Shown piece after piece: positions 47,015 through 63,417 of a stretch of 64,000 nt of DNA; within the stretch, counting starts at the first letter, position 1, and the number at the start of each line of letters is the position of its first letter. The stretch is from Pyropia haitanensis (Eukaryota; Rhodophyta; Bangiophyceae; Bangiales; Bangiaceae). The stretch spans positions 2,466,064 to 2,530,063 of the forward strand of contig SDUX01000007.1 in assembly GCA_008729055.1 (NCBI GenBank). The letters are read 5' to 3'. The translations under genes were made by a program, and so were the position numbers. The notes below the pieces were generated by a model. The model had not been told where the DNA came from. It did not search any database and was given only the letters and a program-made list of their open reading frames with translations.

Positions 47015-49004
47015 GTCGACAACGCCCGTGGAGAACGGCGAGGGAGGGAGACGCGGGAAGCGTGGGGAGGCCGGAAAAGGGATGACCGGTGGCGAAGTCA
47101 GTGGAGGGTAGGCGCCGGGCCGGCCGGTGCCGCGGCACGGCACCCGCGGAGAGGGCCGCGGCAGAGCGCAACGTGAGGGGGATGATCTCGTCCAACCAAA
47201 CGAAAAAGCACCGCAGACCGTGTTGAAAAACAGTCCTTCTCCACTTTTGTGCTGTCAGAAGCTGTCCAGGGCGGCAGCTAGAGGGGGGAGAGAACGGAAC
47301 AGCATGACAAAAAATCGACCGTGGAGGATTGCCATTATGGCATAGGAGCGTTTTCTTGGAAACTGTTGTGAAATATGGGAGCGCGGTAGTTCATTGGAGA
47401 ACTCAAAACACACACAATTGTTGTATTGTTTGGTAAATCCTTGTCTCTTGCCGATCACAGCCCGAGCGCAGATCACCGTTGTTGACGGGGGTTCGAATCC
47501 GTCGGATGCTACAATTGTTGGTTGTCCATGGCACCTACAGCATCCCCGAACAGGCCAGCAGTCACAAAAGAGAGAACGAGATGTGCACGGCGCAGCCGCC
47601 CTCGCTAGACCAACATGTTCCAATACATCCGCCGGCCAGACTCGAACTGATCCGTTCGATGAGCGTACGCCGCGTCCCTCTTCAATGCGCTTGTGACGAG
47701 ACACCGCGACACCCCACTACGGCATGCCATATGAGTCCCGATTAGCGCTACGCATGACACGGGCGGTGTCCTGACTCAAGTTTGCGGGACTGCTCAAACA
47801 ACCCGCCTCCTTTGCGACACACAGTGCCCAGGTGGTCCGCGGAGGACGAGGGTTGGCACGTACGCTACAAGGAAGAGACCACTGGCGACTTTCAAAGCCC
47901 ATTGCCGAGCTGTATGGGGACCCTGCCACTGGTGCGTCACTGTCGGCCAAGCAGAATCTCCGCACGTTGCGCTGCGCGCCGACCGGCGGCCGCTCATGGC
48001 GCGGTGGTGGTGTTGTGTACCGCAGGGAATGGAGCACGCTCAGCACCTGGACTTGCTGCTTGCCTCCCCCTGCGTCGCTCGTGGCAGACGTCATCCCTCT
48101 GAACTCGATGTCCCATCTAGACTGGAACGCCAAGGGTTTCGACTGACAAGACGCTGCCGGGCGGCAAAGGGTTAGAGCGGCCCAGATACCCCCACACATG
48201 AAACGTCCTGCAGGCGGGGGTGGGCAGATGCACGCAGGAGAGCGCTGAAGAGGACGAAAGAGTGCGGAAAAGCGCATCACGATGGCGGTGCACCGCCATG
48301 AAACGCCGTCGGGCGTGCTCCGCGGGGACGCCATTCCCGTAGGAGCCCCCCGAGGAGAGCACTACAGTGGGTACACCGCTACGCAAATCGGGTGGCCCGA
48401 TGTGGGCTGGGCACGTCCCAATGGGAAGGCGCGCTTGGAATGGCGGGCGCTCCCCAGACAGGTCGATAGGAGCGGGCCGACGGGGACTCGCGCCCGCGAG
48501 CATGGACAGACGGGCCACAGGCAACCGCCGAGACGGAGGTTGGCTGGTTCGAGAGGAGCAAAGCAGGCGCGCACGATACACTGGGAGGAACGCCCGCGGT
48601 GCACCCAGTGGGTCGTCACCACGGGTTGGGGCCGAGAGGACGCCTCCCCCACCGCGGGGGGGACCGCCACCGCCCAGAGACGGCCGCCCTCGGTCGCCGG
48701 GTCTCCCTCCCTCCGCGCCCGTTTTGTTCCTGTTTGCGAGCTATTCCGGGCGGTGAGAGCCGCCACGGGCGTTCCACGTGTGTCTGCCGCGCCGCGGCGG
48801 GGCGTGCCTGGCCCGCCCGTGAGACCGCACACCGACGGCGGCCTCGTCCCCGTACCGACCCACCATGCCGCCTGTGTTCGTACGTACGTAGGTGTCCCGC
48901 CGGGGGGGCGTGCACCCCTTCTCCTCGCTCGGGGGTTGACCGCCGCGGCGGGCGGGTCCCCACCACCCCCCCCCCCCCCCACCACGGCGACGGTCGGCCG
49001 AGTG
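47015..49004. other. Moderate-GC spacer before the transposon
   Basis: No supported protein gene. 47372-47515 contains tRNA-like pieces (an A-box-like TAGTTCATTGGAGAAC and GGTTCGAATCC) that do not fold into a proper tRNA. A C run occurs near 48966-48980, just outside the left transposon end. Confidence 0.45.
48992..48999. repeat. Candidate left target-site duplication GGTCGGCC
   Basis: An identical 8-mer occurs at 63410-63417, just outside the right terminal repeat. Both copies lie 4-5 bp outside the aligned 13-bp inverted repeats. Zisupton-type elements are known to make 8-bp duplications. Chance identity is possible in DNA of this composition. Confidence 0.4.
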
Positions 49005-49017
49005 GGGGTAATGGCAG
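49005..49017 (+). repeat. Left terminal inverted repeat
   Basis: GGGGTAATGGCAG, matching the reverse complement of 63393-63405 at 12 of 13 positions. Confidence 0.7.
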
Positions 49018-49036
49018 CATCGGATTCTCATTAGGG

Positions 49037-49066
49037 AAGGGTCGGATCCTTTAACAAGGGTCGGAT
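49037..49066 (+). repeat. Left subterminal AAGGGTCGGAT motifs
   Basis: Two direct copies at 49037-49047 and 49056-49066. The same 11-mer recurs near the right end. Probably transposase-binding sites, by analogy with other DNA transposons (inference). Confidence 0.65.
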
Positions 49067-49229
49067 TTCTATTAACTAAGGTAGATAAGGGATTAGGCGG
49101 TCGGGGAGCTGCTGTCAGCACTCTGACACGTGCACACGCCCACGTGTACACCACATCGGCTTTCTGGCGGGCGGTGCCGCCTCGTCGATGCACGGGCCGC
49201 CTTGTCCTGGTTGATGCTCAGCGGCCGAC

Positions 49230-52200
49230 GTGCGCATCCGCATCCACTTCGGACTTGGGCAGGCGTCTGTGATTGACGTCCCGTGGGCGCAGCGCGACGA
49301 CACCTGCACCGTCTGGGATGTGCTCCTTGCCCCTGATATGGCGGAAGAACCCGCCGGCTCGGTCCGCGGCGTCGACGCCGTTCCGACACCCGCGCCCTTA
49401 GCACCGGCCAACCCCGCTGGGCGGCCCTCCATCACGACGAATGGACGCTCCCGCCCCCCCCGCTGCCCTTATCCCTCCCGCCCCCCCTCCCCCACTCCCC
49501 TCGCACCGATCCGGGACGATGAGCACGCGATCTTGGCGGCATTGCCGCCCAAGGTCTCCGCCTTATGGCCACCCACCGCGGCTATCCGGCGGCGTTCCGA
49601 GGGCCGCCGTGCCTCTGGCGGCCGGCCGACTGCTGCGGCCAGCGCCACTGCCGCGCAATCCGCGGCGCCCTCCCCCCTTACGGCGACCCCGCCCCTCACG
49701 GCGATGTTTCGCGCCACTGTACCGCCCCCCACCTCGGCGCCACCCCCCTCGACGGCGCCGCCCACCATGAACCAGCTCCCCCCCGTCGCCTTCTCGCTTC
49801 ACTCCGTCAATTCCAAGATGATGCTGCCGGACGCTTCCGGGGCTGCGACTGGGGGGGCAGCATTGGCAGGGGTAGCGGTTGATGCGAGGCTTGCTCCGGA
49901 TGCTGGAGTTGTGGCGGCGGCCGGCGTCATCGCGGAGGCGGGCCTCGCATCAGCAGCGGCGGTGATGAAGGTTGGGGTGGCGGTGTCGGCTGGCGTTGCG
50001 GCGGCAGGGGTGGGGGCCCTCACCACCTCCTACCCTCCCACGGGGGCTACTCGGCAGCGTCCCAAGGGCCGCGGTGCGCAATCGTTGCCTTCATCGGCTG
50101 CCACTTCGTCTCCCAGTGCAACCCCCACCTCACATCCCGAGGACGCTGTGAGCACTCCTCGCATCCGGCGGGTGGCGTGCGAGCCACCACCGCCGACCCA
50201 GATTGGCGTTGCCATCTTTCCTGCCTTGGCAGCCGCTTTTGCCGGCCGCCGCCACCACCCACCGCCTTCGTCAACGGCAATACGGCCATCAGAGCGAGTC
50301 CGGCGCGTGACATGTTTGAGACCTCGCGCTGTTCCAGTCGCTACTGTGGCGAGGTCGGCGTACGAAGCCGCTGGGGTGGACACGGGCGAGGCGCCTGAGG
50401 GGCCAGCTCGCCCGACTCGGCAGCTTCACACGGGTGGGCGGGTGGGTGGCGCGGGGCGGCCGGCGGACACCCGGCGAGATACGTGGAGGACCCTAGGCGC
50501 CGGCATGCAGCGTGCAGTGTGTGGCGCTCTGATCGACCGCGGCCTTGAGCCGGTGCTGCGCGGCCTGCTTGGTCGGTCCCCGGCTGCTCATGTGCACGAG
50601 CGCATCCATGATGGGTTGAGCGCTCGTGCACGGGAGTTTTACCGCGGTGAGGTCTGGCCGCTGCGCGGCATCTTTGGCGTGCTTGCGCGGTTCCCGGCCG
50701 GTTTGGTAGGCGAGGCCGGCTCCAAGCTGACGCCTACGCTGGTGACCACCTGGCTCACGGACAGCGGTACCGTTGCGTGCTCGTGTGTGGGGCGGGTGGC
50801 GTTCGTCGCCCGCCACAGCCAGGTGCCCTCGGATGCGACGTGCCAGCACGCCAAGACTTTCCGCGGCGCGATCTCGTACCTGGCGGCCCGGCTGGGTGTG
50901 GCGCTGTCTACTTTTCGGCGCGTCGTGCCGCCGCTGTTTGGGGAGACCGCCGGCGAGGGCGGCGGGGGCGCTGAGCTGGGTCCTGATGTCAACGAGAAGC
51001 TCGACTGGGACGCAGAGGGCACCATTCAGGCGTTCCGCACAGGGCAGACGGCGGTCGCCGTGGTGCTCTCGGGCACGGGCTCGTGCAAGGTGCCCACCCC
51101 CGTGCGGTGCGCGCGTAAGACGAGCACGTGCCAGTTTTGTGACAGCGCCGCGGGGTTTTCGTGCGTGCACGCTGTGCGGGCCCGCAGCGTTCGGCGCGGG
51201 GAACCGCCCGAGCGGCTTGGTGCTGCGGATGCCGCTGGGGACGACACAGACGGAGACGGCACCGTAGTTGACGACTCGCAGTCGACGCTGCCCCTCCCGC
51301 TCTACAACTGCCTTCGCTCCGTGCGTGTTGACGCTACTGTGTGCAGCTACATGCGTGAGGGGAAGACACTGGTCGTGCGGGCGCCATCGTGCTGCCCAAC
51401 GTGCGGGTCGGTGCAGACGGACAAGAACACCAAGGTCGATATGGGGGAGGTGATGTGCAGCGAGGGGTACGCGACGATGCGGATGGAGTCGTTTTTTTGT
51501 GATGGCAAGGACTGCCAGCGGTGGATCTTCCCAGACGGCCGCGCTCAAGGACTTGTCATCCTCAGCTGCATCACCGCCTCAACCGCCGCCATCATGCGGG
51601 ACATGGCATCCGAGATGGTGTCCAGCGGTTCTCCTTTCAAGGCGTGCTTCAAGAGATGGACCAACCAGTTCATGGACCGTCGCGACTCGGGGGCGTACCC
51701 CAGGATGCTGCCAGTGAAGATGCGGTCTCGCAAGACGGTGACCTCCATGTTCTTCCTCACGCTGGAGCTGATGACCAAGGAGCCGCCTCTGTGGGCGTTC
51801 CGGTGCAGCACGTGCCAGGACAAGAACGGGCGGTTTCGGATTGTGACGGCCGACGGGATTTGGCTGGGTTACCTCAAGCGTCTGGCCTCGGGCAGTCACA
51901 CCACTCCCTCCGAGATATGCACCTCAGTGCGTGCCGGGGTGCATGCCGCGTCAATACACCCGTCGGAGTGGGTGCGGCGGTTCTTGAGGTTGACCCTCAA
52001 GCAGCCGTCCAAACCCATTGTCATCAAGGCTGGGCAACTGACAAGCGCCAAGCGCGCCCTGGCCTTTCTTTGCCCTGCAGCCCTACCCGAGGTGAATGAG
52101 AGCGACCTGTCTGACCAGCGGCGCGTGCACCTGGCGCGGCTGCGGACCTTTCTTGAGCGGCTGTGGGACCTGGATCGCGCCACGGTGTCGCTGGTTAATG

Positions 52201-54131
52201 CGATCGTCGTCCATACGAAGAAGCAGTTGATGGGTCGTAGTGCGCTGTCGGAGGCTGTCGTGGCGGACCACCAAGCTACACTGCGACACCTGCACGCTTG
52301 GCAACTACGCCTCCAGCAAGGACTGGACGGGGAAGGCTTGGCTGGTGGCGTGGACGCGGTCGTGGGCGATGATGGCCACGGGGGCGCCGCAGAGAGGGGC
52401 GCCGCACCAATTGATGGGGAGGTGGGCGATGGCGATGCTGGCGCGGTCGGCGACGCACCAGCTGCTGCCGGTGCAGTCGGTGGAGGTCAACAAGCTGGGG
52501 GAGCTGCAGCCGCTGTCCCTGCCGCCGCGTTACCCGCAGCTGCCGCTAGGCAAGCGGGTGGTGCGGGTGGTGCCCGTGCCGCCCGACGGCCTGCCGAAGC
52601 TGCGCAAAGGCACCACATGGACAGGAGCACAAGCGAGCCGCTGGACCCGCGATGCTTGCGGGATGGCATCAAGGCGCTCGGGCGGTCGGTGTACCGGGAC
52701 ATCATCTCGTTCGCCATCGCTGTGACCATTGACCCAGTCGTGAATGCCTTCAAGCCGCGGCACGTCACTGCCCTCTCCAAGCTGTCTAACGTATTGCTGG
52801 CTGGTAACGGTCGCACGACGCTGCAGCAGCTGATGCGGCGCGTGGCGCTGGATCCTGAACCTCAGCCGCCTCCTGACACAGCGGACACGCAGCTGCCCCT
52901 GGATGCGGCCAACGTGCACCCACCTCCCGTCCCGGCCGAGGCGGTGCATCCCGCTGGCGTGGGCGACGCGCTGGCAGTCGCGGCCGGCGATGATGGTCAA
53001 CCGCCAATCGTCATACCTGACCCACCGCCCGAGGAGGAAGCACGGCCTGCGGATCTGTCGGATGTGGTGGCGCTGCTCAAGGAGAGCCGCATGCTCTACT
53101 GCTTTTTGGTGGCTATAAGAGCGTCGGTGCCGACCTTTGCCATGTTGGCGGCGCCGGTAAGCGACGTGTTGCTGTCCGTGCGGGCGGCGATTGAAGACTT
53201 CCATGCCGAGCGGGACGGGAAGGATGGGACGGCGGCCGCGTACAAGCAGCGGTGGGGCGACGAGACGCTGGCACCATCCGAGCTCCGCGCCCGCTTTGTG
53301 GCGGAGTACCCCAGCGCCTCGGACGACCCGGCGGTGACGGGGGCGTGGTTCCCTGGGCGTCTTATGTGCCGCCCCGCTGCCTTCTCTCCCGCAGAGGAGG
53401 CGGAGCTCGGCACCTGCTCGAAGAACTACCAGGACGTGCACAAGTTCTTCTCCCCGGGGACGTTCACGATCTGTTGTGCTTGCGCGCACCCGAAGATGCT
53501 GGGGTTTGTCGTGCTTGACAAGCGGGAGGGGCCTCCTGCGCTCCTCAATGCGCTCCTGTCCTACTTTGCTTTGCTGCCCCACTTTGTCATTTACGACTTT
53601 GCTTGTGGTGCGCTGCGCTCTGCCATCGGCAAGCTGCCGTTCTTTGTTGCTTTGGTTGTGCTGGTGTCGGACCTGTTTCACATCGTCAACCATCTATGTA
53701 GCGATGCTCTCCACCCTCGCTCGTATTCGGCGCTCGACCAGGCGAACACCGTCGCCCACGAGCAGCGCAACGCGCCAATCAACTTGCTGCGCAGGACGCT
53801 TCGGGCGGTCGGCCAGCAAGAGTACATGGGCGTCCTCAAGATGGAGAATGTCATCTACAATGTCATGGCGCATGCCAAGGCGGCGTGCTCCAACCCCCTG
53901 CCTGAGAGCTACAACTACAGGCAGTACTACTTTTCGCGCTCCCCTTGTGTGTGCGGGTGCAACTACCACCCTGACGCGCCCCCCCAGCCTCCCCCCCACC
54001 GTCTGTTCCGGACCAACCCAGCTCCGACGAGGAGACCGCCGCTCCGTGGGCGGGGGCGGAGTACGAGATGCTCGACGTGTAGCAGCGATTGTCTTTGCCG
54101 CCGTCTACCTAGCGGCGGGCGGCGCCCTTGA
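49230..54131 (+). CDS. KDZ-family transposase with SWIM-like and CxC zinc clusters
   Basis: Predicted DDE-type transposase. The first 400 residues are Pro/Ala-rich and disordered. A SWIM-like zinc finger follows at about 516-538 (CSCVGR ... ATCQHAK), then a second cluster (STCQFCDSAAGFSCVHA, about 630-645), then a CxC cluster (CCPTCG at about 722, FFCDGKDCQRWIF at about 758). The KDZ catalytic region is C-terminal: FTICCACAHPKMLGFVVLDK, HFVIYDFACGAL (about 1450), SDLFHIVNHLCSDALHPRSY, and AHEQRNAPIN (about 1510), with candidate acidic residues D, D and E, followed by MENVIYNVMAHAKA. The fold order agrees with Kyakuja-Dileera-Zisupton enzymes. Between about 52270 and 52620 another frame looks more protein-like than the open one, implying two compensating shifts. 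A neighbouring frame offers an acidic tail ending at 54082 instead of 54131. The start at 49230 lies 212 bp inside the left repeat. Possible later start: ATG at 49338. Confidence 0.8.
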   Translation: MRIRIHFGLGQASVIDVPWAQRDDTCTVWDVLLAPDMAEEPAGSVRGVDAVPTPAPLAPANPAGRPSITTNGRSRPPRCPYPSRPPSPTPLAPIRDDEHAILAALPPKVSALWPPTAAIRRRSEGRRASGGRPTAAASATAAQSAAPSPLTATPPLTAMFRATVPPPTSAPPPSTAPPTMNQLPPVAFSLHSVNSKMMLPDASGAATGGAALAGVAVDARLAPDAGVVAAAGVIAEAGLASAAAVMKVGVAVSAGVAAAGVGALTTSYPPTGATRQRPKGRGAQSLPSSAATSSPSATPTSHPEDAVSTPRIRRVACEPPPPTQIGVAIFPALAAAFAGRRHHPPPSSTAIRPSERVRRVTCLRPRAVPVATVARSAYEAAGVDTGEAPEGPARPTRQLHTGGRVGGAGRPADTRRDTWRTLGAGMQRAVCGALIDRGLEPVLRGLLGRSPAAHVHERIHDGLSARAREFYRGEVWPLRGIFGVLARFPAGLVGEAGSKLTPTLVTTWLTDSGTVACSCVGRVAFVARHSQVPSDATCQHAKTFRGAISYLAARLGVALSTFRRVVPPLFGETAGEGGGGAELGPDVNEKLDWDAEGTIQAFRTGQTAVAVVLSGTGSCKVPTPVRCARKTSTCQFCDSAAGFSCVHAVRARSVRRGEPPERLGAADAAGDDTDGDGTVVDDSQSTLPLPLYNCLRSVRVDATVCSYMREGKTLVVRAPSCCPTCGSVQTDKNTKVDMGEVMCSEGYATMRMESFFCDGKDCQRWIFPDGRAQGLVILSCITASTAAIMRDMASEMVSSGSPFKACFKRWTNQFMDRRDSGAYPRMLPVKMRSRKTVTSMFFLTLELMTKEPPLWAFRCSTCQDKNGRFRIVTADGIWLGYLKRLASGSHTTPSEICTSVRAGVHAASIHPSEWVRRFLRLTLKQPSKPIVIKAGQLTSAKRALAFLCPAALPEVNESDLSDQRRVHLARLRTFLERLWDLDRATVSLVNAIVVHTKKQLMGRSALSEAVVADHQATLRHLHAWQLRLQQGLDGEGLAGGVDAVVGDDGHGGAAERGAAPIDGEVGDGDAGAVGDAPAAAGAVGGGQQAGGAAAAVPAAALPAAAARQAGGAGGARAARRPAEAAQRHHMDRSTSEPLDPRCLRDGIKALGRSVYRDIISFAIAVTIDPVVNAFKPRHVTALSKLSNVLLAGNGRTTLQQLMRRVALDPEPQPPPDTADTQLPLDAANVHPPPVPAEAVHPAGVGDALAVAAGDDGQPPIVIPDPPPEEEARPADLSDVVALLKESRMLYCFLVAIRASVPTFAMLAAPVSDVLLSVRAAIEDFHAERDGKDGTAAAYKQRWGDETLAPSELRARFVAEYPSASDDPAVTGAWFPGRLMCRPAAFSPAEEAELGTCSKNYQDVHKFFSPGTFTICCACAHPKMLGFVVLDKREGPPALLNALLSYFALLPHFVIYDFACGALRSAIGKLPFFVALVVLVSDLFHIVNHLCSDALHPRSYSALDQANTVAHEQRNAPINLLRRTLRAVGQQEYMGVLKMENVIYNVMAHAKAACSNPLPESYNYRQYYFSRSPCVCGCNYHPDAPPQPPPHRLFRTNPAPTRRPPLRGRGRSTRCSTCSSDCLCRRLPSGGRRP

Positions 54132-54786
54132 GGCGGGCTTGTGTGGGAAGGCGGTGGGGTCGCCCACTTGTCGGTGATCGTAGCGGTGGGCGGAAAGATT
54201 GTTGTGCTGGCCGTCGTGGACACGGCAGCCGGCCGGTGGCTTTCTTGTGGTAGGCTCGTCGGGCTCAGTGCTCTGAGGAGCCCCCGTGTCGCCGCTATCA
54301 GCGAGGCGGCGGGCGCTGCCCAACTCACTGGGCTAGTGGACGGCCATGGCGGTGGGTATCCGCTTGTCAATGCTGTGGGGGGGCAGCGTGGGGATTGTCG
54401 AGCTGGCGGCGGTGGTTCTTGCCTTTGTCGAGGGGACGGTCGGCAACTATCATTTGGTCGTGTAGTTTGGATGGACGGCGGGGCCTGCCGGCCCAAGTGC
54501 CGGGGGTATGGAAGGGCAGCACGGTCGTGGGCTAGTTGCTAGTCGTGTTGCCGCTGCAATCGGAGAGGCATGCGGCGCCGGTTTTGTGTTTTTTCTGTTG
54601 AGGGCGGGGCGACGCATGGTGGTTAGGGTGGTTGTGCCGGAGTGCGTTCATGTCTGGGCGCTTGTGGCGGTGTGTGATGCCAGTTTAGTACACTTTTGCG
54701 GAAGGACAGTGGGAGGCATTGACGTACAACAGCTTGTGGCAGGCATAGTCATAGTTCTCGCAGCGGTTGGCGTCGCCAGCGTCGCC
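54132..54786. other. Spacer inside the transposon
   Basis: Downstream of the transposase. No supported gene, and G-rich on the plus strand. Confidence 0.4.
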
Positions 54787-55316
54787 GAGGGGGTCGTCGA
54801 CGCCAGAAGGCGGTGGGTATCGGCGCTGCACCTTCGTGGTGCAGCTGGCGGTGTCACGTCAGCGGGAGGCGCTCTGGTGTGAGTGCCAGTCTGGGAAGGT
54901 GGCTGGATTGTGGCGCTGGCGGCAAACGTCCTCGCCGCCTTCGATGGAGCCGCGGGCGCTGTGTCGCAAGATTGGATAGGGTCGATAGCGGCCAGCACAA
55001 ACCTTCCACTGCTGACTGCGGTGACTGACTGATCGTGGCGCAGGCGCCGCAGAGGGGGTCGCCGACGCCAAAAGGCGGTGGGCATCGGCGCTGCACCTTC
55101 GTGGTGCAGCTGGCGGTGTCACGTCAGCGGGAGGCGCTCTGGTGTGAGTGCCAGTCTGGGAAGGTGGCTGGATTGTGGCGCTAGCGGCAAACGTCCTCGC
55201 CGCCTTCGATGGAGCCGCGAGCGCTGTGTCGCAAGATTGCATAGAGTCGATGGCGGCCAGCACGAACCTTCCACCGCCTGTTCCGGTGACTGACTGATCG
55301 TGGCGCAGGCGCCCAT
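54787..55316 (+). repeat. 265-bp tandem duplication with conserved hairpin
   Basis: Two near-identical copies (54787-55051 and 55052-55316), differing by scattered substitutions, with an exact 265-bp offset. Each contains GCTGCACC-TTCGT-GGTGCAGC (54825-54845 and 55090-55110), a perfect 8-bp stem with a 5-base loop. The offset is not a multiple of three, so it is probably non-coding. Confidence 0.85.
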
Positions 55317-56750
55317 GGGAGGCCGCCTCTGTACGGAGCGGGGGAAAGTGCCACTGTGATGGGCGCCAGCGCTCTCAGGTTGGCCGCTGAGTGCACTGAA
55401 ACAGTAGCGTAGTTGGCGGCCGAGGGCGTCGTCATCGTCCACGGGTCGGCAATGAGGTATGTGTTTTGTTGGCTCACGGGAGACACGTGCTGGCCAGCGG
55501 CAGACGTCCCGCCCGCTGCCATCAACGCTTCCAAACGACCGCCAACGCCGCCGCTACCACTGCCGCCTCAAGCGCGGCCAGAGCCGGTGCTTCCCCGGCC
55601 CCCAAGGCACCCCAACAGCCTCACCAGTGGAATCCTGCGACACACCCGCTGCATATGTGTCCCTCACACCTTGGCGTGTCTTGGGAGAACACGGCAGCCT
55701 CCGCCACTGCTTACTCTCTGCGTGCGGTGCGCCAGCCACATGTCCATCAGTATCCGCCGACTGGTGCGGCAGGCGAGAAGGGGTTGGGGGGCAGCCGCCA
55801 TCCTCTCGCGCGTTAGGCAACACTCACAAAACCGTGAATGCGTGCGAGAGAAGGATAGCTGGGGGCTGGACAGACGCGGGTCTCACTGGGGAATGCGGGG
55901 AGTGCAATGCCGTCAGAGCATCACGGCCATGGGAAGCGGAGACGCAAAAGAAGGCTCCTAGCCAACTCCCGCACCGCTCGAGCCACTCTCTCGCCACGCC
56001 GAAGGGAGGCGGTGCAAGAGTTCCAGGTCTAGACTGCTCGTTCGGGGGTAACGCGAGAGACTGTACATGGAGGCAAAGGGGCGCTGCGCCAGCGCGACGG
56101 AGCACGGCGGCACGAGGCCAGACACACTTTTTGAGCGATTTGGTCGGGGACGTACAAGGGGCGACCCACCCCCCGGAAGGATGGCGGAAAAGAGGCGTAT
56201 GGACGGGAAAACAGCTCCACTGAACGCATCCATGCCGGCCGAGCTGGACGTCTCGACGAGCAAAAAATGCATCCCTGCCGGCCGTAGATCACTTTGATGC
56301 AAGAGGAGTGCGATGAGATGGAGATTAAATTGATCAATTGTATTTCAGAAATTGTTGTATCGAGCTGAGCGGTCTCCTCATTGGCTAGCCCAGATGCAGT
56401 GCTGCCGCACATCGCTGGCCGTCAGGTGGCACGCCACAGAGTCTTGCGCAAACAGCAAACAGAGGAGCATTGCCTGGCGGCTGTTGCGTTGCTGTCTCGG
56501 GGCAGAACAACGGGGTACGTTCAGGCGCTACAGCTTCGCGGCGTATGCGCTGCCGCTTATCCTTGTCCACTCGCCGCGCCACGCGTTCGTGGCAGCCTGA
56601 ACCGCCCTTGGGGCTTCTGACACAAACCCGCCTCGCACCAGGCGACGTCTGACCTTTCCCGCCCCGTTGGTCGCGAGCAGGCTTGCTTGGCTTTCAGCTC
56701 CGTCCTCGACCCTGTCGCGGACCTGGCGACCAGCGCGAACGTCCTCTATT
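55317..56750. other. Spacer inside the transposon
   Basis: Moderate-GC DNA between the tandem duplication and the helicase leader. Short frames only. No family motif seen. Confidence 0.4.
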
Positions 56751-56754
56751 CGCA

Positions 56755-56880
56755 CGCTCGACTTGCTCCTCTTCGCCCTCCCTTTTACTGTTCCCCCATC
56801 ATCCCTTCCATCTCCTCCTTTCTGCCTTCCCTCTCTTGCCTGCCCACCTCTCTTCCCCATCTTCCCCATTTTGCGCCCGC
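56755..56880 (+). promoter_or_regulatory. Pyrimidine-rich leader upstream of the helicase gene
   Basis: About 125 bp of almost pure C and T on the plus strand, ending about 110 bp before the helicase start. It could be a core-promoter pyrimidine patch or the 3' end of a leader intron. Only composition supports this. Confidence 0.35.
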
Positions 56881-56988
56881 CCTCTGCTATTCTTGGCGTC
56901 CTTTGAGCTGGGACGCCGACGGGCACTGTCCCCCGCCCCTCCTGAGGCGGTGTACAGACTCTGGAGTCGGATCAGCGGGTCTACGGCC

Positions 56989-58497
56989 ATGGCGTTTGAC
57001 TTGGACCTGTCGCAGCACTCGGCTTGGGAGGGATTTCTAGCGGGGAAGAACGTGGGGCTGTTTGGGCGAGCCGGCTGCGGCAAGTCCACCGTCCTCAAGC
57101 GCGCCATCGATCGCGCACGGAGCGTTCACGGGGAGGCTGGCGTGGGTGTCGTCTCGTGGACGACTGCGGCGGCCAAGCTGATTGACGGCCAAACCATGCA
57201 CAAATTTTTGCGGATTGGCATTGCCGAGCTACCTAAGGAGCGCATCCTCGAGGCGGTGAAGCGCAACAAGTTTGTCCGCCACAAGGTGGCTCACACCTCA
57301 ATCCTCTTCATTGACGAGGTGCCGCTCATCCCCACGCGCTGGTTCACCATATTCGAGTACGTCGTCCGACAGCTGGCGCCGGCCGGCAAACAAGGCCGCC
57401 CGTGGGGCGGCTGCCAAGTCGTTGGTATGTTGTCCGCATCGTGCGTGGGAACGAGACTAGGGAGGAGGTACAGACGGATGAGAGAGGCCCCTATTGACGC
57501 TCAAGTGACAACGTGTCGTGGGTGTGTTTCGAGCGGCGGGCGCCATATTCTTTTGCTTAACGTCGTACTCACACATGGTACCTGCTTCCAACGTCGACTC
57601 TGTGCTCCTGCGGTACGTACAGTTGGCGGCGACCCTCTGCAGCTTCGACCTGTGCAAACCAAGAGCACTCGTCAAGACGTGCCCGTATACATGTGTAGAA
57701 TTTTTCGGGACTCCTTTTTGTCTCGGTACGGTATGCTCGTCTTTCTCACAGGGTCGCACCGCCAGTCTGGCGACAGCTGGTTCGTCTCCTGTTTGGACCG
57801 TGTGCGCAAGGGGGAAGTGACCGACCAGGACCTGATGGTCCTCAACGCCACTTCCGACGGCGTAGCGGCGGACGAGTGGGACAAGCGGACGCAGCTGCGT
57901 GCGCTGAACGCGCAGGTCGACGCGTTCAACAATGACCAACTGTCGCGGCTGGCCGGCGCCCAGGTGGTCTACTCTTGCCGCGATGAGGTGGCGGCGCACC
58001 TTACTCACCCGGCGCGGCGCGCGTACGCGCAGAGGTGCTTACGGGAGGTCGCACCGCCTTGCGTGACCCTGAAGCGGGGCGCTGTGGTGTTGTCTACGCG
58101 GGAGGTGGATTTGGTGGCAACCGCCACGCAAGGAGTGGTCAAGGACTGCCGGGAGGCATCTGTGTTATGCGACTTTGGCGGCCGGCTGGTGGATGTGAAG
58201 GCTGCTGCCTTTGACGTGATCGACAACTGTGGGACAACTCTGGCTACTCGCCACGCGATGCCCTTGGCGCTAGCGTGGGCCATGACAATCCACCGTGCGC
58301 AGGGGACTAGTTTGAGCACGCTGGCCATTGACTTCTGTATGCTCAACTGGCGCCTTGAGGGGCTTGTTTATGCTGGATTGTCTCGATGCCGATCACTTGC
58401 TGGGCTTTTTGTACGCGGGCTGCGCCGTGACCACATTGTTGTAGATGAAGATGCGGTGCAGTTTTATTGCAATGCAGTAGACGCCTCCACAATGTAA
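56989..58497 (+). CDS. PIF1-family 5'-3' DNA helicase
   Basis: Superfamily 1B helicase. The start at 56989 (MAFDLDLSQHSAWEGFLAGK) sits in a good GGCCATGGCG context. Motif I/Walker A is LFGRAGCGKSTVLKRA (residues about 24-39). The Walker B region is SILFIDEVPLIPTRW (about 104-118). A 198-bp in-frame intron (57425-57622) interrupts motif III. Splicing gives QVVVGGDPLQLRPV, which matches the PIF1 consensus, whereas the unspliced frame does not. Later motifs are LTGSHRQSGDSWF, VRKGEVTDQDLMVLNAT, MTIHRAQGTSLSTLAIDF and YAGLSRCRSLAGLFVRGL (motif VI). All motifs needed for ATP hydrolysis are present. It ends at a TAA at 58495-58497. Its place inside the KDZ element, beside and co-oriented with the transposase, suggests a role in element replication or repair (inference). 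It could also be a captured host gene. Confidence 0.85.
   Translation: MAFDLDLSQHSAWEGFLAGKNVGLFGRAGCGKSTVLKRAIDRARSVHGEAGVGVVSWTTAAAKLIDGQTMHKFLRIGIAELPKERILEAVKRNKFVRHKVAHTSILFIDEVPLIPTRWFTIFEYVVRQLAPAGKQGRPWGGCQVVGMLSASCVGTRLGRRYRRMREAPIDAQVTTCRGCVSSGGRHILLLNVVLTHGTCFQRRLCAPAVRTVGGDPLQLRPVQTKSTRQDVPVYMCRIFRDSFLSRYGMLVFLTGSHRQSGDSWFVSCLDRVRKGEVTDQDLMVLNATSDGVAADEWDKRTQLRALNAQVDAFNNDQLSRLAGAQVVYSCRDEVAAHLTHPARRAYAQRCLREVAPPCVTLKRGAVVLSTREVDLVATATQGVVKDCREASVLCDFGGRLVDVKAAAFDVIDNCGTTLATRHAMPLALAWAMTIHRAQGTSLSTLAIDFCMLNWRLEGLVYAGLSRCRSLAGLFVRGLRRDHIVVDEDAVQFYCNAVDASTM
57425..57622 (+). other. Intron in the helicase gene
   Basis: The donor is GTTG|GTATGT at 57425 and the acceptor is GGTACGTACAG ending at 57622. 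Its length is 198 bp, a multiple of three with no stop, so the unspliced frame stays open. Joining restores the conserved helicase motif (Val-Gly-Gly-Asp-Pro-Leu-Gln-Leu). Confidence 0.85.
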
Positions 58498-58807
58498 AGT
58501 CCCGCCAGCCGAGAAGAGAAAGAAGTCGCAAGCACAAACAACAAACGAACCTGCAACCTCGGCCGCCGCTACGCGCGCCACCGTCACAGCGACGCCCGCA
58601 AGGCCGGGGGTGCGGACTCAGCCTAAAGCGGGTACAACCTTTACTACCACGGCGCCCCGCCACCGCACTAAGACGGTTGCACAGCGGCGTAGCATCCAGC
58701 ACCCACCCCCGCTGCGTATGAGGACGACGTTGCCCAGCCGGCCGCTTCTTCAGCCTCGGCCACACCCAGCCCCCATCAATCAAAAACATAACACCACCAC
58801 CCTGAGC

Positions 58808-61709
58808 TTACCCCTCGGTGTACAAAGCGTTCCAAAGCACAAGAGACCGCCGTGCGAGCGCCAATGACTCTACCGCCATTGCATCTTCCATGGTAGTTGG
58901 CAACATAAAGTCGGGAAAGTGGTGCTTGCGATACTGGCTGTAGGCGGTGCTCTCGTAGAAGTACATGAACGGATACGTGGCCTCCCTTTGGCCGTTGGCG
59001 TACACCATACCAAAGACCTCTACAGCCGGCATCTCTGCCAGCACGACCGTGCGTTGGCCGGCCTCTAGTTCGCCTGACTCTGCTTCCCGCGCAGCTAGCG
59101 CCGCCATATCTGGCGGAGCCACACGCCACACGCACGCGGTTGCAAGGAGAACGGACCCCTGCTCCTGGGGCGGCCGATCAAACAACCGCACGCGAGGCCT
59201 GCACGAGCGGAAGGCCAGAGGAAGCAGCAAAGCTAGTTAGTCAAGCAGAGCTCTAGGAAGCATCCTTGGAAAACAAGAGGTTCAAGTCGAGTGCGTAGAA
59301 CAGAGGGCCATAAAGCCTGCCTGCACGGGCAGGTTCAGCCAACGGAAACGTACCCTATCGAAGATACAGACCACACCGAGCGGTACCCCGCCGCTATGGA
59401 ACCCAAAGTCACCGGCGTGGGTGATGGGTTGCCGCTGACCAAGCACAACTGGGCGTCCTGCCCAAACGGGTACACAACGTCTTCGCTGCCGTGCTCAATC
59501 GCCTGCAAAAACACCGTGACAACAGTGGGGGGGATGTCCACGCCATGGTACATGGTGAGGTCGAGCAGCAGCTCCGCAGTTGCCGCCCGCTTGCCGTCCA
59601 CAGTCAAAAAGCTCGCGCCCACCCGCTTCACGAGCGCATTGGCAGCGTCGGCGGGCTGCTGCGAAGCCGCGGTGACGGGAAAGTCGCCCGCTCTATCTGC
59701 CGAGCCGCTGACCCCGGCGTCGGCCGAAGAGCTTCCATCCGCTCCTCCCACAGCAGCATTCACCCCGCCTGCTTGAGTGTTGCTTTCAGTGCTGCCACAC
59801 GCGTTGCTGTCCGAACCTTGATTCGCGGCACCGCTCGCACCACCATCTGAGCCGCCTCTTCCTCTCTCATCCAAGCTGCCACTCCCGCGGCCGCCGATCG
59901 CGCGACCGTAGCCGTCACCCGAGCTGCCACTGACACCGCCAGCCGAGGCACCCCTGGCAGCACCTCCAGTACCCCCGCTGGAACCGCCACCCAAACCACC
60001 ATTGGCAGCTGCACCCGAGCCCGTACCTGACCCACCGCCAAGGCCTCCGCCTGCGCTGCCGCCAGCGGCGCCGCTACTAACGCGAGCTTTCGGTGGCGAC
60101 TCCCGTTGCCGCTTCCTGCCCATTCTTTCATTGGCGGCACGTGATGTAGGTGCCACTGACATGCGATTCGCGGTTGTGGACGCGGCTGCGCTCGTGGGAG
60201 CCAGGGCGCCGCCAGAGAAGAGGGCCAGCAGCCAGAGGAAGAAAGGGTCCCGCCGGACCTTCATCAGCATGATGACAGCCAGATACTCGTCGTTGATCAT
60301 ATACCTGGTGTTTTTGAACGATGGCGAGATGAAGCACACCTCAGAGCCCCGTATCTTAAACCTCACAGTCGCACCGCGCGCCGCCTCGGGCGTCAGCTGG
60401 TTGTAATTGTGGTCGACCTTGGCGCGCGCCGTCGCATCGGTCATCTTCCGCTTCACGAGCGTGTCCACCACAAACTTGTATAGACCGATGAACTCCAGTA
60501 GCCGGTTACGGAAGGAGTTGTCGCGGGAAGGCACTTTCAGCTCCGCCTCCGTCTCCTTCACGACCTGGGAGGGGATGAAGTGAGTCGACATGACGGGGGC
60601 CGGGGGAGGGATGCGGGTGCGGCCGCGCCCACACGGCAGCAACGTACGCGGCGGGGCGACCGTTAAGCCTGGGAGGCGAAAATTGTGAGAGAGCGTGTAG
60701 TCCAAACGCTGCTCGGTCCGACGTCCGCTTGCCGCCGCAGAGACACTTGAAGCCCCACCCGCCAAAGACGTGCGGGCAGCGGCACCACCCATGGCAACGT
60801 CAGTCCCCGCGACGCTGCCTGTTGCGGAGCCTTCGCCGGGAGAGCCACGTAAAGCCCCGCCCACAGAGGTGCTGCCCTCCGCGGCGCCGACATCCGCGTG
60901 GTCACTTCCCGAGGCGTTACCAGCAGTCACGCCGCCGCCCGCTTGTAGCCCAGTAGACAAAGCGTCCTGCGGCTGGGACGCAAGCGTCTGAGAGACGACG
61001 CCAGGTAAGCGCTGCCCCGGCGAGTTATTGGTCGCAGAGCTGACCTGCGGAACGGCGCTAGCCAACGCGTCGCCGTCAGTCGCGCCGCTCCCTTGCCCAC
61101 CATCCCCCGCCACGATCCCGCCCGGACCGTACGAACTCCCTGGCGCAGGCGCAGAGGATGCCTCGCGAGATGCCGTCCCCCACGCGATTCGGCAGCCACT
61201 CTGCCGGTGCCCGCTGCGGCCTCCGCGCTGTCTGCAATGTCGCCGGGCGAGCCAACAGGGATACCACCACCAGCCGCGACGCCGCCTCCAGCCCCGACGC
61301 CACCAGGCGCTGCGGCACCTGCAGCGCCCTGCGGCGTAGAGCGGGCGGCCGACGAGCCGACCGCCGAAGGCGATCCTCCAGGGAGTACTGAGACATCCCG
61401 TCCACGTTCCTCGTCTAGGAGACACAAAGCAGAGCACATGCTGTCAATGGCAACAGTGAAGGCTCCCTCGATCTCGGAAGAGGGCCTCTCTTGCCCGGAC
61501 CCATCCACGAACCCAGATCCAAAAAGCATCATCCCCCCCGGCGTCCCAGGGCGGCAGATAGTCACAGAGAGCAGCACCTTGTTGTCCGCAGTGGCAGTGT
61601 GAATTTTCATGCACGTCTCCTGCAACATTTGGGCCAGATGTACGAACGCATGCCCGGAGGAGAACCCATACAAGCCAGCGGCAGCGGACACCGACGGAAC
61701 GACGTCCAT
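58808..61709 (-). CDS. Third transposon gene, unknown function
   Basis: No family was recognised. From the ATG at 61709 the protein begins MDVVPSVSAAAGLYGFSSGH, then AFVHLAQMLQETCMKIH, and SGQERPSSEIEGAFTVAIDS. After a Gly/Ala/Ser-rich linker in which the frame shifts by one base (near 61160-61200) come a conserved-looking core of about 130 residues (LDYTLSHNFRLPGL; FIPSQVVKETEAELKVPSRD; FRNRLLEFIGLYKFVVDTLV; KIRGSEVCFISPSF; YMINDEYLAVIMLMKVRRDP) and a second Gly/Ser-rich linker. A helical block follows (VDGKRAATAELLLDLTMYHG; VVTVFLQAIEHG). A 156-bp intron (59198-59353) leads to a last exon with VRLFDRPPQEQGSVLLATAC and YPFMYFYESTAYSQYRKHHF. It is transcribed towards the helicase gene from near the right end. 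A DNA-binding or transposition accessory protein is possible, but this is only inference. Confidence 0.6.
59198..59353 (-). other. Intron in the third transposon gene
   Basis: The donor ATAGG|GTACGT is at 59353 and the acceptor CTCGTGCAG ends at 59198 (minus strand). It is 156 bp. Joining gives SSIG|PRVRLFD in phase. The acceptor has a good pyrimidine tract. Confidence 0.65.
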
Positions 61710-61929
61710 TGCTCAGAGACCCGCACTACAAGCCCTCCCCCTGAGCGTGCCACAGCAAATCACCCCACCCCACCACTGCCGGTTCCCGCAAGCAGCACAC
61801 CTCCGACACAAGAGGTGCATCGAAGCCTGCAGAGGCCGGGGAGAGCGGGGACGGGGAGCCCGCCGGCCCGGCTCGTCGCCGGCAAGGAGCACACGAGCAG
61901 GAAGTGCTGTAGCGCGTAGCCACAAGGAC

Positions 61930-62185
61930 GCGCCGGCCAGGTACCCGCCAGAAAGGATCGCGCCTGCCCAGCGCGCGCTCGTCGGGTGCACGCTCGCCGG
62001 GCACACGCCGGTTGAGTGCACGACGCCAGTTGCACGCCCGCTGGGTCGGCGGTGGCCGGACTGGCGCCGGCCAGGTGGGCGCCTGGAGACAGCGCGCCGG
62101 CCAGGGGCGCACCAGCCGGGAGCACGCCTGCAGGGAGTGCGCGGTCAGGACGCGCGCGGTCAGTAAGGGCGCGGATGGGCAGCGT
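61930..62185. repeat. Degenerate 15-bp tandem repeats
   Basis: Units like GCGCGCCGGCCAGGG with GCACGCCGGTT-type variants. One minus frame reads as five-residue units of the type ALPAG, VLPAG, APLAG, ALSPG, AHLAG. Whether this is ever translated is unknown. Confidence 0.55.
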
Positions 62186-63115
62186 GCGGGCGGGGCGGCC
62201 GGTAGCGGGGTGGCCAGCGTCGAGGCGATAGCAGCGCCCCTGCGCGTCGCCGCGGCGTGATCGGCGTGAGATGGATGCCGGCGTCGCCGCGAGCGGCGGC
62301 GGGGACCGTAGCAGCGGGGACCGTCGCGGCAGGGAGGGTGGTGGCCGGGATGGCGGTGGCAGGCAGGGCGGAGGCAGAAAGCGCGCGGGCGGGGCGGCCG
62401 GTAGCGGGGTGGCCAGCGTCGAGGCGATAGCAGCGCCCCTGCGCGTCGCCGCGGCGTGATCGGCGTGGGAGGGATGCCGGCGTCGCCGCGAGCGGCGGCG
62501 GGGACCGTAGCAGCGGGGACCGTCGCGGCAGGGAGGGTGGTGGCCGGGATGGCGGTGGCAGGCAGGGCGGAGGCAGAAAGCGCGCGGGCGGGGCGGCCGG
62601 TAGCGGGGTGGCCAGCGTCGAGGCGATAGCAGCGCCCCTGCGCGTCGCCGCGGCGTGATCGGCGTGGGAGGGATGCCGGCGTCGCCGCGAGCGGCGGCGG
62701 GGACCGTAGCAGCGGGGACCGTCGCGGCAGGGAGGGTGGTGGCCGGGATGGCGGTGGCAGGCAGGGCGGAGGCAGAAAGCGCGCGGGCGGGGCGGCCGGT
62801 AGCGGGGTGGCCAGCGTCGAGGCGATAGCAGCGCCCCTGCGCGTCGCCGCGGCGTGATCGGCGTGGGAGGGATGCCGGCGTCGCCGCGAGCGGCGGCGGG
62901 GACCGTAGCAGCGGGGACCGTCGCGGCAGGGAGGGTGGTGGCCGGGATGGCGGTGGCAGGCAGGGCGGAGGCAGAAAGCGCGCGGGCGGGGTGGCCGGTA
63001 GCGGGATGGCCGGCGTCGAGGCGATGGCAGCGCCCCTGCGCGTCGCCGCGGCGTGATCGGCGTGGGAGGGATGCCGGCGTCGCCGCGAGCGGCGGCGGGG
63101 AACGCAGCAGCGGAG
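62186..63115. repeat. 199-bp minisatellite, about 4.7 copies
   Basis: The string CGAGGCGAT starts at 62221, 62420, 62619, 62818 and 63017, an exact 199-bp period. Copies are almost identical (a few substitutions in the first and last). 199 is not a multiple of three, so each copy is read in a different frame and a coding role is unlikely. It lies about 300 bp inside the right end of the transposon. Confidence 0.95.
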
Positions 63116-63281
63116 ATGGTGGTAGTAGGGAGAGTGGTGGCGGGGAGGGCGGACGCGGTGAGGGTGTCGTCGGGGACGGCGGTGGCGACGGGCAGTGCTG
63201 ATGAGCGGGGGCGTGGCGGCGGGATGCTCAGCCGGTGTCGTACACGTGTTGACGACACGTTGACGATAAACACCGCTCAGA

Positions 63282-63320
63282 GAGTGGTTGATACTAGGTC
63301 TGTGAGTGGTTGATACTAGG
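63282..63320 (+). repeat. Two 17-bp direct repeats near the right end
   Basis: GAGTGGTTGATACTAGG occurs at 63282-63298 and 63304-63320. Confidence 0.85.
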
Positions 63321-63359
63321 CATGTAAGGTGACTTGGAAGCCAATAGGAATCCATGGAT

Positions 63360-63394
63360 AAGGGTCGGATTCTTGAAGGGTCGGATCCGACCCT
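63360..63394. repeat. Right subterminal AGGGTCGGAT motifs and 18-bp palindrome
   Basis: Direct copies of AAGGGTCGGAT at 63360-63370 and 63376-63386. An inverted copy overlaps the second, so 63377-63394 is a perfect palindrome (AGGGTCGGATCCGACCCT). The same 11-mer occurs twice at the left end. Confidence 0.75.
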
Positions 63395-63405
63395 GCCATT
63401 ACCTC
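63393..63405 (-). repeat. Right terminal inverted repeat
   Basis: CTGCCATTACCTC. Its reverse complement matches the left end at 12 of 13 positions. Confidence 0.7.
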
Positions 63406-63409
63406 TGTT

Positions 63410-63417
63410 GGTCGGCC
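63410..63417. repeat. Candidate right target-site duplication GGTCGGCC
   Basis: Identical to 48992-48999 on the other side of the element. Confidence 0.4.

Follow-up and report, generated by a model that had tools for sequence, protein, structure and literature searches.

The DNA analysed here is a stretch of 64,000 nucleotides (the window) from Pyropia haitanensis; it lies within contig C9 of a genome that was searched over 52.9 Mb and 136 contigs. The right-hand part of the window holds what looks like a real 14.4-kb transposon that retains, as a set, a KDZ-type (Kyakuja-Dileera-Zisupton) transposase, a PIF1-type helicase and a third gene. The features are listed below with the evidence for each.

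49000..63410, no strand: whole transposon of 14,411 bp (ends set against those of other copies; flanking 7-bp duplication)
48993..48999, no strand: left target duplication GTCGGCC (7/7 bases as in the right flank)
63411..63417, no strand: right target duplication GTCGGCC (7/7 bases as in the left flank)
49000..49025, plus strand: GAG-type end GAGTGGGGGTAATGGCAGCATCGGAT (a GAG-type end is also present in six 5.4-kb elements)
63385..63410, minus strand: CAA-type end CAACAGAGGTAATGGCAGGGTCGGAT (end comparison with other copies)
49037..49068, plus strand: subterminal motifs AAGGGTCGGATCC / AAGGGTCGGATTT (motif search)
63360..63395, no strand: right-end subterminal motifs, two direct and one inverted (motif search)
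49230..54131, plus strand: KDZ-type transposase ORF, 1633 aa, start and C-terminus uncertain (database relatives and profile match)
51384..51680, plus strand: CxC4-like cysteine cluster, transposase residues 719-817 (Pfam E 0.012, below cut-off)
53592..53771, plus strand: catalytic-type motifs YDFACG (53592), SDLFHIVNH (53667) and AHEQRN (53754) (conserved residues)
54779..55313, no strand: tandem repeat within the element, 265-bp unit, 2.0 copies
56989..58497, plus strand: PIF1-type helicase, 436 aa if an intron is removed (Pfam PIF1 E 2.6e-15; PDB PIF1 E 7.4e-30)
58808..59230, minus strand: final exon of the third gene or else a small gene of its own (36-47% identity at C8, C4 and L066; same position and strand)
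59335..61709, minus strand: main part of the third gene, with an N-terminal block from 61709 and two more conserved blocks (conservation at relatives)
62181..63152, no strand: tandem repeat close to the right end, 199-bp unit, 4.9 copies

The initial annotation had placed three genes between inverted ends at 49005 and 63405, with shared subterminal motifs and a possible 8-bp target duplication. The ORFs, the domains and the inverted ends can all be located; each true end is 5 bp outside the one first given, at 49000 and 63410. The element has the ends GAGTGGGGGTAATGGCAG and CAACAGAGGTAATGGCAG and is flanked by two copies of GTCGGCC. The duplication is 7 bp rather than 8 bp; the supposed eighth base is the final base of the element's own right end. 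In the related elements on C10 (C10a) and C11, seven flanking bases are likewise in common and the eighth differs.

The two ends carry inverted repeats and are asymmetric: one reads GAG...TAAT and the other CAA...TAAT, with TAATGGCAG common to both. The layout of GAG followed by TAAT at position 10 is shared by the ends of the window element and of two relatives on C8 and C4. Subterminal motifs are indeed shared between the ends. With up to two mismatches, AAGGGTCGGATCC occurs six times in the window against 1.06 expected (six were reached in 0/100 shuffles), and five of the six occurrences are located at the two ends. The AAGGGTCGGATCC / AAGGGTCGGATTT motifs are possible binding sites for the transposase.

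The end pattern TAATGGCAGNNTCGGAT has 43 matches genome-wide at up to two mismatches, compared with 12 for a reversed control. Sixteen matches are exact, and 14 of these pair inward to give seven elements, one of them the window element and the other six each about 5.4 kb long. Two further matches with one mismatch each bracket a 17.9-kb element on C8. All eight elements whose flanks were compared have one end of the GAG type and one of the CAA type. Seven of seven flanking bases are identical in 6/9 two-ended elements (the window element on C9, C8, C4n, C10a, C11 and the autonomous element on C4); the C4 autonomous case is not independent evidence, since an exact 7-mer was built into the rule used to search for it. 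The C10b element has 6/7 identical bases, in a C run. No target duplication is seen at two of the 5.4-kb elements, C6a and C6b, where 1/7 and 3/7 flanking bases are identical. Among 56 mismatched left/right pairs used as a control, none agrees at 7/7 and one agrees at 6/7. The paired end types and the 7-bp duplication therefore define the window element as 49000-63410. Ends and duplications of this kind appear to mark mobile units; as signs of mobility they are indirect.

Target duplications of 7-8 bp are a feature of KDZ elements, and the window-type elements, with 7 bp, fall within this range. Reported lengths are 7 bp for Kyakuja and 8 bp for Zisupton and Dileera in the available text of PMC12730594, and 8 bp for Cryptococcus KDZ1 and 4-8 bp for KDZ2 and KDZ3 in that of PMC12810828. 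Two fungal Kyakuja families described in the former text have a 7-bp duplication and CA..TG termini without inverted repeats. The window element agrees with these in its 7 bp and differs in its GAG/CAA termini and inverted repeats.

The transposase has 34 relatives among database proteins, one of them near-identical. The Pfam KDZ model PF18758 gives no match at E <= 1 to the window transposase or to any of 15 aligned sequences; it does match 12 other loci in the genome, nine of them above cut-off. Homology to the RNase-H-like KDZ core is nevertheless clear from profile comparison. When 17 window-type transposases were aligned by hhalign with four proteins from PF18758 loci of the same genome (L067-L070), the match had a probability of 99.8 and an E-value of 2.3e-29 over 661 columns; this E-value is that of one comparison, and as whole proteins two of the four score above and two below the Pfam cut-off. 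A 300-aa catalytic part used as a single-sequence query matched 40 loci, including 8/12 PF18758 loci.

The KDZ-associated cluster CxC4 is matched at E <= 1 by 7/15 aligned sequences (best 2.1e-5), although the window protein itself, at E 0.012, is below cut-off. The D, D, H, C and E of the motifs YDFxCG, SD.FHIVNH and HEQRN are invariant in 15/15 aligned sequences, and a catalytic role for these residues seems likely. AlphaFold gave no confident model for the catalytic part of the transposase. Since homology is clear and PF18758 does not match, the window transposase is treated here as forming a separate lineage within the KDZ superfamily, outside its Pfam-defined core. The likeness to known KDZ elements consists of a homologous transposase, a CxC-type cluster in some relatives, large size and extra genes.

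The helicase reading frame is interrupted within helicase motif III by a proposed GT-AG intron (57425-57622). With this intron removed, a protein of 436 residues starts from the methionine at 56989; its Walker A and B and PIF1 motifs can be located and are intact. PIF1 helicases are typical of Helitrons, and their presence in a transposon is usually taken as a Helitron sign. Helitrons also encode a Rep domain of the HUH type and make no target duplication. The window element resembles them in its PIF1-type helicase and differs in having no Rep: no Helitron_like_N domain was found in the element, and the genome search found two such loci, both elsewhere (C9:6366806 and C8:4588886).

Helitrons are thus present in this genome, and the helicase might be imagined as part of a Helitron, or as another helicase gene, that has come to lie beside or inside a KDZ element by chance. 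This is very improbable and already contradicted by the data: matching ends enclose the same gene order at three loci, neither of the two Helitron_like_N loci detected is nearby, and in a tree of 13 helicases those of the window, C8, C4 and L066 (a contig from another genome) form one group of their own with support 100.

The third gene has nine relatives in the database, one nearly identical to the window protein. A relative in Pyropia yezoensis (hypothetical protein I4F81_004250) is 69% identical over 82% of the part used as query. In the window copy, the N-terminal block and the main part are in different frames; a database protein, P0035, spans both parts uninterrupted and is 99.8% identical over the main part. 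C8 retains the N-terminal block and, like C4, the other blocks; at L066 the middle block is conserved. The block at 58808-59230, which lies downstream of the main part and is likewise shared, is probably the last exon of this gene. No Pfam family was matched at E <= 1 by any of the seven proteins scanned. In the AlphaFold model, two blocks amid disorder (about residues 190-323 and 507-613 of the folded piece) reach partial confidence; most of the protein has no confident model, and comparison with the PDB returned no usable match. The element introduces a conserved protein family without a detected fold or domain.

Full-length relatives with all three genes occur elsewhere in the genome. In searches with the transposase DNA, the helicase protein and the core of the third protein, C8 and C4 were each time the best matches after the window. 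The C8 element (17,914 bp) has a transposase core 67% identical to that of the window, and the C4 element (15,437 bp; 2138535-2153971) one that is 58% identical. Conserved protein blocks at the two loci are 31-67% identical to the window. The C4 element is flanked by the duplication GAGGTGT, and its 24-bp ends match at 20 positions. Order and orientation are the same in all three elements, with transposase (plus), PIF1 (plus) and third gene (minus), and the three full-length members found (window, C8 and C4) share a single design of ends and 7-bp duplications. The same gene order and strands are seen in L066 (JAHDHX010000011.1), an 11.5-kb contig whose identity to the window is 32-50% for the transposase, 36% for PIF1 and 24-36% for blocks of the third gene. 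L066 is filed in a Gracilibacteria genome bin and is probably a stray eukaryotic contig that contaminates it.

These relatives bear out the suggestion of the initial annotation that the locus represents a distinct, complex KDZ lineage, since the three genes stand together in three full-length members from this genome and in L066. Neither the helicase nor the third gene is confined to this locus or to a different kind of element: the genome search proposed earlier recovers both at C8 and C4, together with the transposase, matching ends and duplications, and the helicase stands outside Helitrons.

In 9/9 comparisons (window with C8 and window with C4), differences are more frequent at the third codon position than at the first two, which argues that the genes have been kept as protein-coding. 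Against C8, for example, the differences at the three positions are 0.36/0.30/0.60 for PIF1 and 0.47/0.35/0.64 for the main part of the third gene. Helicase and transposase trees also agree within the window clade: window and C8 group first (support 100 and 92), followed by C4 and then L066 (87 and 62). In the genome search lists, the subfamily of the window element is represented by the window copy alone; given this and the frame break in the third gene, that copy may be in decay, or there may be an error in the assembly. A transposase fragment at C6:712196 and a third-gene match at C6:738825, 26 kb apart, look like remnants. At C10:4617579 (L018) there is a lone GAG-type end with C8-like subterminal repeats, and a further copy may lie there.

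The six elements of about 5.4 kb with window-type ends came from the end-pattern search of the genome. At the cut used, C6a (5,445 bp) matches the window element at its ends only, with 93% identity over 75 bp and 89% over about 80 bp. C6a is the one 5.4-kb element read through, and a comparison with the three genes detected no relative of any of them in it. Over the outer 1.5 kb on each side, the other five copies are 97.1-97.6% identical to C6a on the GAG side and 92.4-97.5% on the CAA side. Elements mobilised in trans by a transposase of the window type would be expected to look like this.

The association between PIF1 and KDZ extends beyond the window lineage. The Pfam model finds 19 PIF1 loci in the genome. 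Nine lie within 13 kb of a KDZ-type transposase, against 0.40 expected (binomial P 6e-11); the 13-kb limit was chosen after the distances had been seen, and 8/19 qualify at 10 kb. KDZ-type hits here number 44 (40 from the catalytic-part search and four from the PF18758 search). After near-identical copies are collapsed, 7/15 PIF1 loci are near KDZ (P 1e-8). As only 2/19 PIF1 loci accompany a Helitron Rep, annotation by the helicase alone would mislead; PIF1 marks KDZ transposons here, not just Helitrons.

Three of the nine KDZ-near PIF1 loci belong to the window group and six to a second, independent lineage, which the initial annotation does not mention: a near-identical pair on C9 and C2, and C4:941309, C7:3655141, C11:4068596 and C6:2948686. 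The pair, C9:412892-431140 (18,249 bp) and C2:2063953-2082200 (18,248 bp; L067, L071-L074), is one second-lineage element at two sites. At their two ends, where 1,119 and 3,141 bp were compared, the copies show 99.8 and 99.9% identity and the match stops sharply; each has a 7-bp duplication of its own (GAAGCTC and CCGTCCT). The window-type third gene was not found among the ORFs of the second-lineage loci on C9, C4 and C7. The helicase at C7:3574481 also groups with the second lineage, with no KDZ hit within 80 kb.

KDZ elements with extra genes are already known: fungal elements carry TET/JBP genes (PMC12730594), and giant Ectocarpus elements carry accessory genes (PMC12477816). The helicase and the third gene could similarly be passengers of an ordinary KDZ element, with no part in transposition. 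This is a serious rival, albeit an unlikely one. Within 13 kb, a PIF1 locus is present for nine of the 44 KDZ-type hits and lacking for 35; KDZ transposition in general can therefore do without the helicase. Orientation in the second lineage also varies, which fits passenger genes too: transposase and helicase are divergent in the C9/C2 element (transposase on the minus strand, helicase on the plus strand), convergent on C4, and on the same strand on C7, C11 and C6.

Against this stand the constraint on the coding sequences and the distribution of PIF1 on the transposase tree. The tree has 27 tips (26/44 hits from this genome plus L066; near-duplicates, short fragments and C11:5277872, a piece that did not align, were left out). 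The nine tips with PIF1 nearby form two clades, comprising 4/4 window-clade and 5/5 second-clade tips. Parsimony requires two changes, and 0/5000 label shuffles gave as few, the shuffles ignoring relatedness and near-identical copies.

In the literature searched, which did not cover Repbase, no KDZ element with PIF1 was found, and co-mentions of the two were unrelated; novelty is relative to that literature. This agrees with the earlier remark that no standard description of such an element is known. The texts available from PMC12730594, PMC12810828, PMC12477816 and PMC8226300 treat KDZ elements, duplications or extra genes, and none names PIF1; the helicases in that of PMC7473861 are RecQ and DEAH. 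Fungal KDZ elements thus differ from the window element in carrying TET/JBP genes and, as far as the text of PMC12730594 goes, no PIF1. Algal KDZ elements can be large (up to 30.3 kb in Ectocarpus and 31.7 kb for a Chlamydomonas element; PMC12477816). The window element resembles these in its large size and accessory genes; their accessory genes are mostly of unknown function in the same available text, and PIF1 is not named among them.

Academ DNA transposons that encode a helicase, AcademH, are reportedly similar in being DNA transposons with their own helicase. They are said to have a transposase of another superfamily and a helicase of another family than the window element.

Sequence comparison establishes the element as a unit with defined ends, together with its shared gene set, its coding constraint and the existence of 5.4-kb elements with the same ends. 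The retained set hints that some ordinary transposons, as one group, may supply their own helper for DNA repair or copying. The probable reading is that a distinct KDZ lineage is represented here by a complete transposon with a kept three-gene set, whose helicase aids copying of the donor gap by the mechanism that follows.

By family knowledge and the form of the ends, the RNase-H-like D/D/E transposase would bind the subterminal GGGTCGGAT repeats, cleave at the element ends and insert the element into targets with a 7-bp stagger. It may also mobilise the 5.4-kb elements in trans. Cellular Pif1 works in break-induced synthesis. The helicase of the element most likely acts during or after transposition, when it would unwind DNA and help a polymerase through the long, GC-rich element. 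The donor gap would be copied back from the sister or homologue with this help, so that cut-and-paste movement would raise copy number. For the third protein, which is the weakest step of the scheme, the likeliest role is that of a partner in DNA binding or complex formation.

The helicase might instead assist copying by strand transfer and replication, with no excision and with PIF1 loading at the transfer forks. Such replicative movement is favoured by the constant presence of a helicase in the window lineage and by the near-identical copies of the second lineage at two sites; short inverted ends and 7-bp duplications suit cut-and-paste equally well, and we regard this route as improbable. 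Gap repair is preferred because the association in the window lineage is old and is seen in every full member found, while other KDZ clades have no PIF1.

A wider reading is offered more tentatively, as something that could well prove wrong. These elements may form a class of cut-and-paste transposons with their own replication or repair helicase as a functional part. PIF1 would have been gained by KDZ elements at least twice (or would be ancestral and lost elsewhere), and the window lineage would copy itself back into the donor gap using PIF1 and a new protein family. The two lineages provide two natural cases for testing whether a DNA transposon recruits a helicase for repair synthesis that raises copy number.

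Three PIF1 loci (C11:5313767, C11:3615301 and C8:1251418) have equal scores and very similar ORFs; they have no KDZ hit within 35 kb and no Helitron Rep nearby, and perhaps belong to another mobile element. At C7:3650180-3657500 (L069), a member of the second lineage, the KDZ transposase beside a PIF1 gene carries a C-terminal Ulp1/C48 protease domain (E 1.8e-23).
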